DNA from: a bacterium | GTDB taxonomy: Bacteria; Bacteroidota; Ignavibacteria; SZUA-365 | Length of the DNA stretch: 64,000 nucleotides | NCBI GenBank assembly: GCA_020444325.1 | Contig: JAHLLD010000002.1 | Span: 124,001 to 188,000 of the forward strand | Direction: 5' to 3' | Part shown: one piece after another, positions 58,452 through 59,250 of the stretch | How positions within the stretch are numbered: the first letter of the stretch is position 1 | Layout: every line of letters starts with the position of its first letter | Program-made: the position numbers and the translations under genes | Notes under the pieces: generated by a model | Seen by the model: only the letters and a program-made list of their open reading frames with translations | Told to the model about the DNA's origin: nothing | Database searches by the model: none

Positions 58452-58492
58452 GAAAAAGCCGTCCACTCCACCTCGGAATGGACGGCTTTTTC
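58452..58492. terminator. Rho-independent terminator of rpsA
   Basis: Perfect 14-bp stem GAAAAAGCCGTCCA/TGGACGGCTTTTTC with a 13-base loop; the T-run is the 3' end of the stem (TTTTT). It begins 22 bases after the rpsA stop and insulates the DUF2239 promoter. Confidence 0.93.
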
Positions 58493-58513: not shown

Positions 58514-58557
58514 TACCCGGGTAATATTGCATTTGTAATTTTACCCGGGTATATTTG
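58514..58557 (+). promoter_or_regulatory. Promoter with two TACCCGGGTA operator palindromes
   Basis: Two perfect 10-bp palindromes TACCCGGGTA at 58514-58523 and 58542-58551, centres 28 bp apart. Between and overlapping them is a full Bacteroidota promoter: TTG (58527-58529), 20 bases, TATATTTG (58550-58557). The downstream palindrome covers the spacer and the start of the -7 element, so a bound protein should block polymerase. Start predicted near 58561; the leader carries AAAGGAGACGA before the ATG. Confidence 0.72.
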
Positions 58558-58584
58558 TGTATCATATTGAATTAAAGGAGACGA

Positions 58585-59250
58585 ATGATGTATACGCAGA
58601 TTGCAGAACGCTGCATGGTGTTTGCAGAAGACCGCTGTATCGCGAGGGGAGAGACGCTGCAGGTTGCGCGGGAGATGAAGGAATACACCGATCGCAACCC
58701 GGATGCCTCGATCATGATACTCGATGAGGCGGATGCACGTATCGTGGAAATCGATTTCCGAGGGGATATTGAAGATGTGCTTGCGAGACTCGAAGAGCGT
58801 GCCGCGGAGGCGAATATGCAGAAACTGCATAATGGTGGGGAAGAAAATATGCAGAAAGTGCATAATACCGGTGCCGAGAATATGCAGAAAGTGCATCAAA
58901 CGACGCAGCGTGGCCCCGGCAGGCCGAAACTTGGCGTTGTTTCCCGCGAAGTGACGCTGCTGCCGCGGCACTGGGAATGGTTGTCTTCCCAGCCGGGAGG
59001 AGCTTCCGTTACTCTGCGAAAGCTGGTCGAGGCGGCACGAAAGGACAACAGCGGACGTGATCGCATGCGACGCGCACAGGATATCACCTACCGCTTCATG
59101 AATGCGTTGGGCGGCGACCTGTCCGGCTATGAGGAGGCGCTGCGGGCACTGTACGCCGATGACAGGGAGCGTTTCGCGGAATACATCGCCGACTGGCCCG
59201 CAGATATTCGTGAGCATTCTTTGCGCTTCTCGGCTGCGGCGTTTTCCTGA
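58585..59250 (+). CDS. DUF2239 family protein with an 11-residue tandem repeat
   Basis: 221 residues, soluble. The C-terminal half matches my memory of DUF2239: GRPKLGVVSREVTLLPRHWEWLSSQPGGASVTLRKLVEAAR (in two blocks), then DLSGYEEALRALYADD. Residues 77-109 are three tandem copies of an NMQK(L/V)H-containing unit that is not expected in the family. Function unknown; the name reflects similarity only. Two ATGs in a row start the gene, with AGGAG upstream. It has its own operator-controlled promoter and terminator, making a self-contained unit between rpsA and a thioesterase, possibly acquired by transfer. Confidence 0.78.
   Translation: MMYTQIAERCMVFAEDRCIARGETLQVAREMKEYTDRNPDASIMILDEADARIVEIDFRGDIEDVLARLEERAAEANMQKLHNGGEENMQKVHNTGAENMQKVHQTTQRGPGRPKLGVVSREVTLLPRHWEWLSSQPGGASVTLRKLVEAARKDNSGRDRMRRAQDITYRFMNALGGDLSGYEEALRALYADDRERFAEYIADWPADIREHSLRFSAAAFS
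58813..58911 (+). repeat. Three in-frame 33-bp repeats inside the DUF2239 gene
   Basis: AATATGCAGAAA starts at 58813, 58846 and 58879, a constant 33-base period that keeps frame. The encoded units are NMQKLHNGGEE, NMQKVHNTGAE and NMQKVHQTTQR. They lie in the hinge between the N- and C-terminal halves. Confidence 0.9.

Follow-up and report, generated by a model that had tools for sequence, protein, structure and literature searches.

Twin palindromes at the DUF2239 promoter

Within the 64,000-nucleotide stretch of DNA analysed here (the window), a gene encoding a DUF2239 protein is preceded by a promoter that carries two exact copies of TACCCGGGTA, with a start-to-start distance of 28 bp (Table 1). 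The gene product matches the whole PF09998 domain (residues 10–214; 239.4 bits against a cut-off of 25), and DUF2239 is present as a single copy in the window's genome. An earlier note on this DNA had described the palindromes, the consensus promoter, and the controlled gene in these terms, and all three descriptions hold; the same note took 28 bp for nearly three helical turns, when it is about 2.7. The sigma-70-like promoter is absent from the output of a simple promoter scan. The inverted repeat upstream is likewise absent from the output of that scan, whose limits are exceeded by its loop of 13; as a terminator, it likely separates the DUF2239 unit from the S1-domain gene upstream.

Table 1. 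Features of the DUF2239 locus, in window positions.
Feature	Position	Strand	Remarks
Likely terminator, inverted repeat and T-run	58452..58492	+	Read from sequence; 3' of S1-domain (rpsA-like) gene
Box 1 (O1), TACCCGGGTA	58514..58523	.	Ends three bases before the -35; kept in homologues
-35 element TTGCAT	58527..58532	+	Read from sequence; mostly TTGAC in homologues; ATATTGAC conserved in promoter alignment A4
Box 2 (O2), TACCCGGGTA	58542..58551	.	Within the spacer, overlaps the -10; kept in homologues
-10 element TATATT	58550..58555	+	Shares TA with O2; 17-bp spacer; read from sequence
Ribosome-binding site AAAGGAG	58574..58580	+	Read from sequence
DUF2239 gene, 221 aa; proposed autoregulator	58585..59250	+	PF09998, E 3.2e-71
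Invariant core, residues 109–164; proposed DNA-binding segment	58909..59076	+	Alignments A1 and A3; structure model mf5197c30dc58

Allowing at most one mismatch to TACCCGGGTA, the window holds three matches (shuffle mean 0.50; three of 100 shuffles reach three). The genome-wide search that had been proposed returns only four exact sites in 4,646,367 bases, two of which are the window pair; the other two (L021, L022) are singles located, by eye, inside protein-coding sequence. Apart from the DUF2239 promoter, this genome yielded no strong box site, so DUF2239 may regulate little besides itself here.

Conservation of the box at DUF2239 loci

We examined the upstream regions of 93 DUF2239 genes, 18 of them from named contigs. 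The window's phylum supplied 22 loci besides the window (DUF2239 occurs in 22 of 395 genomes, including the window's, and one genome has two copies); the remainder came from a Pseudomonadota sample (43/398 genomes) and the phylum of one Acidobacteria MAG (9/199), with extra loci added. The window's own sites and gene (L019, L020, L023), two loci duplicating L008 and L009 (L072, L083), and the two other genomic boxes (L021, L022) were excluded before the count. The pattern TAYCCGGRTA was derived from the first loci and then counted in a region comprising 250 bp upstream plus 30 bp. It occurs exactly at 56 of the 93 loci (shuffle mean 0.1) and with at most one mismatch at 74 (shuffle mean 2.36, with no more than 5 in any of 50 shuffles), and 44 loci have two or more boxes at the latter threshold (shuffle mean 0.08). 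Within these loci, boxes are 36 times denser upstream of DUF2239 than in the flanking DNA. Frequent pairs inside genes, which the earlier note would have counted against its reading, are not seen: the 26 kb of upstream regions contain 33 pairs 26–30 bp apart, the remaining 316 kb only two.

The usual layout consists of an AT-rich flank, box 1, ATATTGAC containing the TTGAC -35, about 12 mostly AT-rich bases, and box 2 running into the -10 (promoter alignment A4, built from 39 of 42 eligible promoters, with L012, L028, and L035 left out). The box itself has a GC core and AT-rich flanks. A qualifying pair is found in 57 of the 93 loci, spaced by 27–29 bp in 38 of these and more rarely by 19 bp (n = 5), 24–26 bp (n = 5), or 53–55 bp (n = 9). 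The earlier note saw in this geometry a repressor that binds two sites cooperatively. The conserved boxes strongly support the operator part of that proposal; the cooperative part is not supported by the spacings, with their minorities at 19 and 53–55 bp that do not all fall on one helical face. Many of the 36 loci lacking a qualifying pair have one good box and some have none; in three (L068, L087, L097), the box precedes a gene for a GIY-YIG-like protein that sits before DUF2239 in one unit, and at some DUF2239 genes (e.g., L070 and L091) no recognisable box is present.

Held-out plasmids and whole-genome searches

Model R1 describes the promoter layout from sequence only and was built from 39 promoters. 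We applied it to a held-out set of plasmid DUF2239 genes, which comprises 16 of the 24 records found (the other eight are two from A. brasilense, one from Novosphingobium, and five from Acinetobacter). All 16 genes are matched within about 100 bp upstream, and all 35 R1 matches lie just upstream of DUF2239, with none elsewhere in 64,659 bases. Records labelled 'Acinetobacter phage' (MD-2021a; L264) have DUF2239 beside cysN and look like bacterial chromosome contigs; the held-out set does not include them. The held-out genes include representatives of Bacillota (Paenibacillus) and Deinococcota (Deinococcus). Judged by record names, several of which denote MAGs, box carriers span at least eight phyla, among them also Ignavibacteria, Myxococcota (Citreicoccus), Melainabacteria, Planctomycetes, Acidobacteria, and Pseudomonadota. 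Conservation upstream of related genes in other bacteria, a check that had been called for, thus extends across many phyla. A further record name among the box carriers, Slackia, may be a binning error.

Whole genomes were searched for 79 of the 90 known DUF2239 genomes. At E ≤ 0.05, R1 matches 70 of the 79, in part by construction where the match is a genome's own DUF2239 promoter, vs. four of 80 genomes without DUF2239, where all four matches are weak and partial (best E 0.0033). Since such promoters went into the building of R1, a fair comparison has to be confined to sites elsewhere in the genome: 17 of these reach E ≤ 1e-3, in 14 of 79 genomes, vs. none in 80 genomes without DUF2239 (Fisher 3e-5, a value that overstates independence among related genomes, with a DUF2239-free set unmatched by clade or composition). 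An exact paired-site pattern matched 80 of 90 DUF2239 genomes but was not specific enough, since in many genomes its reversed control had about as many matches; the counts were for this reason made with R1 instead.

Other genes preceded by the box

Besides DUF2239, the box most often precedes a gene for a protein of the GIY-YIG fold that lacks the catalytic residues. In the Pseudomonadota sample, this family (profile A5) occurs in 24 of 398 genomes, 23 of which are among the 43 that carry DUF2239 (Fisher 1.7e-24, inflated by relatedness). Eleven of these 23 genes are divergent from DUF2239 and have the upstream region in common with it, three precede it in one unit, and nine are unlinked. A box with at most one mismatch lies upstream of 20 of the 23, among them all nine unlinked genes, where it is 54–83 bp upstream of the match; each of the other three is preceded by two boxes that both deviate at two positions. 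In the only DUF2239-free Pseudomonadota genome with this family, the GIY-YIG gene has no box upstream. Outside this sample, the family is present in 10 of 47 DUF2239 genomes. All six genes of the Acidobacteriota set lie directly downstream of DUF2239, and two Phenylobacterium genes have one exact box and one two-mismatch box, respectively. Distant relatives in the window's genome (L216, C6:163809-164120) and in Citreicoccus (L217) have no box upstream.

The family resembles the GIY-YIG nuclease domain of I-TevI (PDB 1ln0, 1mk0), with E 1.5e-9 against 1ln0, although single sequences mostly fall below Pfam detection (5/27 match PF01541 at E ≤ 0.1). Unlike in that domain, the catalytic residues, whose columns were picked from the alignment to I-TevI, are mostly missing: the Arg is kept in two and the Glu in three of 27 sequences (alignment A7), so the partner is probably not a nuclease.

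Less common targets include MATE transporters (L126, L167, and L171 by Pfam; L169 by eye), APH-type phosphotransferases (L119, L164), an SDR (L118), an alpha/beta hydrolase (L166), and a SnoaL-like protein (L168). Two genomes from the Pseudomonadota sample also have weaker boxes (E about 0.01) between the methionyl-tRNA synthetase gene and a divergent frame (L179, L180).

The DUF2239 protein as candidate binder

In DUF2239, a variable linker joins the N-terminal domain to a core under strong conservation (GRPxLGVxxxExTLLPxxWxWLxxQxGGxS), after which come helices. In the window's protein, the core runs in the order GRP-L-G-V, ExTLL, short helix, GGAS, and long helix. The GRP is invariant in 78 of 78 sequences and the ExTLL-helix-GG-S-helix part nearly so (alignment A1, which omits 15 of the 93: L014, L034, L041, L044, L047, L049, L052, L067, L068, L069, L075, L086, L087, L097, and L098). 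A nearly invariant core is as expected for a protein that would read a nearly constant box. Predicted structures place helices at 127–135 and 139–175, after a poorly resolved stretch at 116–126. A GRP core among basic residues is the signature of the AT-hook motif; the GRP of DUF2239 is AT-hook-like, and the rest of the core can be read as a strand-helix-turn-helix. The AT-rich flanks and GC core of the box would suit both elements.

Comparisons with known folds returned little. Foldseek gave no match at E ≤ 0.001 for either the whole model or the core alone, neither A1 nor A3 retrieved a relevant PDB sequence, DUF2239 has no convincing Pfam DNA-binding family in common, and NCBIfam offers no convincing family for it. 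Ribbon-helix-helix repressors of the MetJ, Arc, and CopG type bind short palindromic boxes. The likeness to them lies in tandem short palindromes at a promoter, a small regulator, proposed autoregulation, and a strand-helix-helix order that is readable in the DUF2239 core; unlike them, DUF2239 also has an N-terminal domain, the GRP motif, and C-terminal helices, and no profile or fold similarity to them was found. None of 66 DUF2239 members is matched by ribbon-helix-helix models, and hhalign of A3 against 23 RHH_1 fragments (4 of 27 left out) gave a probability of 0.6%, no better than controls. Profile comparison lends no support to membership in this family.

Two divergent cases fit the idea that this core reads the box. 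L098, a diverged DUF2239 paralogue, lacks the GRP and has no good box. In a single Acinetobacter locus (L263, 1282-1330), an altered box, TACCCTGATA, occurs twice, 19 bp apart, and the protein has changes in GGAS and directly behind ExTL, possibly reflecting a change in specificity. The linker of the window's protein (58813–58899) contains three near-identical repeats, NMQK(L/V)H(N/Q), unseen in the homologues of the alignment shown.

Proposed mechanism and alternatives

The twin palindromes quite probably serve as operator for a transcription factor that controls its own gene, namely the DUF2239 protein. We infer from sequence that DUF2239 is the protein that binds the box and that it represses its own promoter until some signal relieves the repression. 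As in an autoregulatory repressor, conserved operator-like boxes overlap the promoter of its own gene. A DUF2239 dimer would sit on each TAYCCGGRTA box. O1 borders the -35, and O2 occupies the spacer and reaches into the -10, so that bound dimers would keep RNA polymerase off the promoter, and negative autoregulation would follow. As DUF2239 levels drop, transcription would resume, holding the level constant, or else a signal would free the promoter, perhaps via the N-terminal domain. Elsewhere, the same box would bring further genes under DUF2239, mostly those for GIY-YIG-like proteins and sometimes MATE, APH-type, and other genes. The earlier note saw no adjacent regulator; this is probably mistaken, since the strongest candidate for binding the boxes is the protein that DUF2239 itself encodes. 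The operator placement relative to the promoter is that of a general kind of autoregulated repressor, whose operators lie on either side of the -35 and extend into the -10; unlike those, the candidate binder comes from a family without assigned function, and one near-constant box serves it across many phyla.

A variant of this reading, which we consider a possibility but an unlikely one, is that DUF2239 represses its own promoter through O1 and O2 and activates promoters that have O1 alone, centred near -43. The unlinked GIY-YIG promoters of the Pseudomonadota sample mostly have O1 alone, just upstream of a TTGAC -35, near the positions used by class II activators, and from there O1 could also activate; however, with -35 elements this close to consensus, the need for an activator is not obvious. 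It is more doubtful still that DUF2239 is merely a target, with another, unlinked regulator binding TAYCCGGRTA and controlling DUF2239 together with the GIY-YIG gene and the other targets. No known DNA-binding fold is recognised in DUF2239, and another regulator with a like distribution would produce the same co-occurrence of box and gene; against this, DUF2239 and the box travel together on plasmids and through many phyla amid very different neighbours, no DNA-binding regulator recurs beside DUF2239 in annotated plasmid loci, and the GIY-YIG box accompanies DUF2239 (at most one mismatch in 20/23 genes of such genomes) and is absent in the one genome without it.

The adjacency or divergence of the two genes in many genomes might also suggest a toxin–antitoxin-like pair, with DUF2239 as the autorepressing antitoxin. 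This is very improbable: the partner is missing from 20 of the 43 Pseudomonadota DUF2239 genomes and from 37 of 47 others, nine of 23 partners are unlinked, the catalytic Arg and Glu are mostly missing, and in the Pseudomonadota sample the two genes do not form the obligate two-gene operon by which type II systems are recognised. That the palindromes arose by chance might be entertained from the window alone, where their count is modestly unusual, but it is already refuted by their cross-phylum conservation and constant position and spacing.

With DUF2239 as the autoregulator, a widespread family without a known role gains a likely function, a predicted binding site, and a first regulon; if its fold is not ribbon-helix-helix, it would represent a new DNA-binding domain. 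Its link to an inactive GIY-YIG protein also poses a new question, namely what that protein senses or binds. More speculatively, DUF2239 might be a new transcription-factor family with an undescribed DNA-binding fold and a near-constant box in at least eight phyla, forming with the dead GIY-YIG protein a two-part sensing and control module in many bacteria; we hold this broader picture only tentatively.

No paper on DUF2239, PF09998, or COG3644 was found in open-licence full texts, and among the matches listed for the box sequences in the open literature, nothing was related by title. A link to SOS/LexA, considered through one paper (PMC8565304), was rejected, as its motifs differ. Plasmid neighbourhoods offer two minor observations. 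GIY-YIG, DUF2239, and MATE genes adjoin on a Phyllobacterium plasmid, and a DUF1330 gene lies directly 3' of DUF2239 on Rhizobium, Paenibacillus, and Eleftheria plasmids (L248, L249, L253), hinting at a recurring partner.
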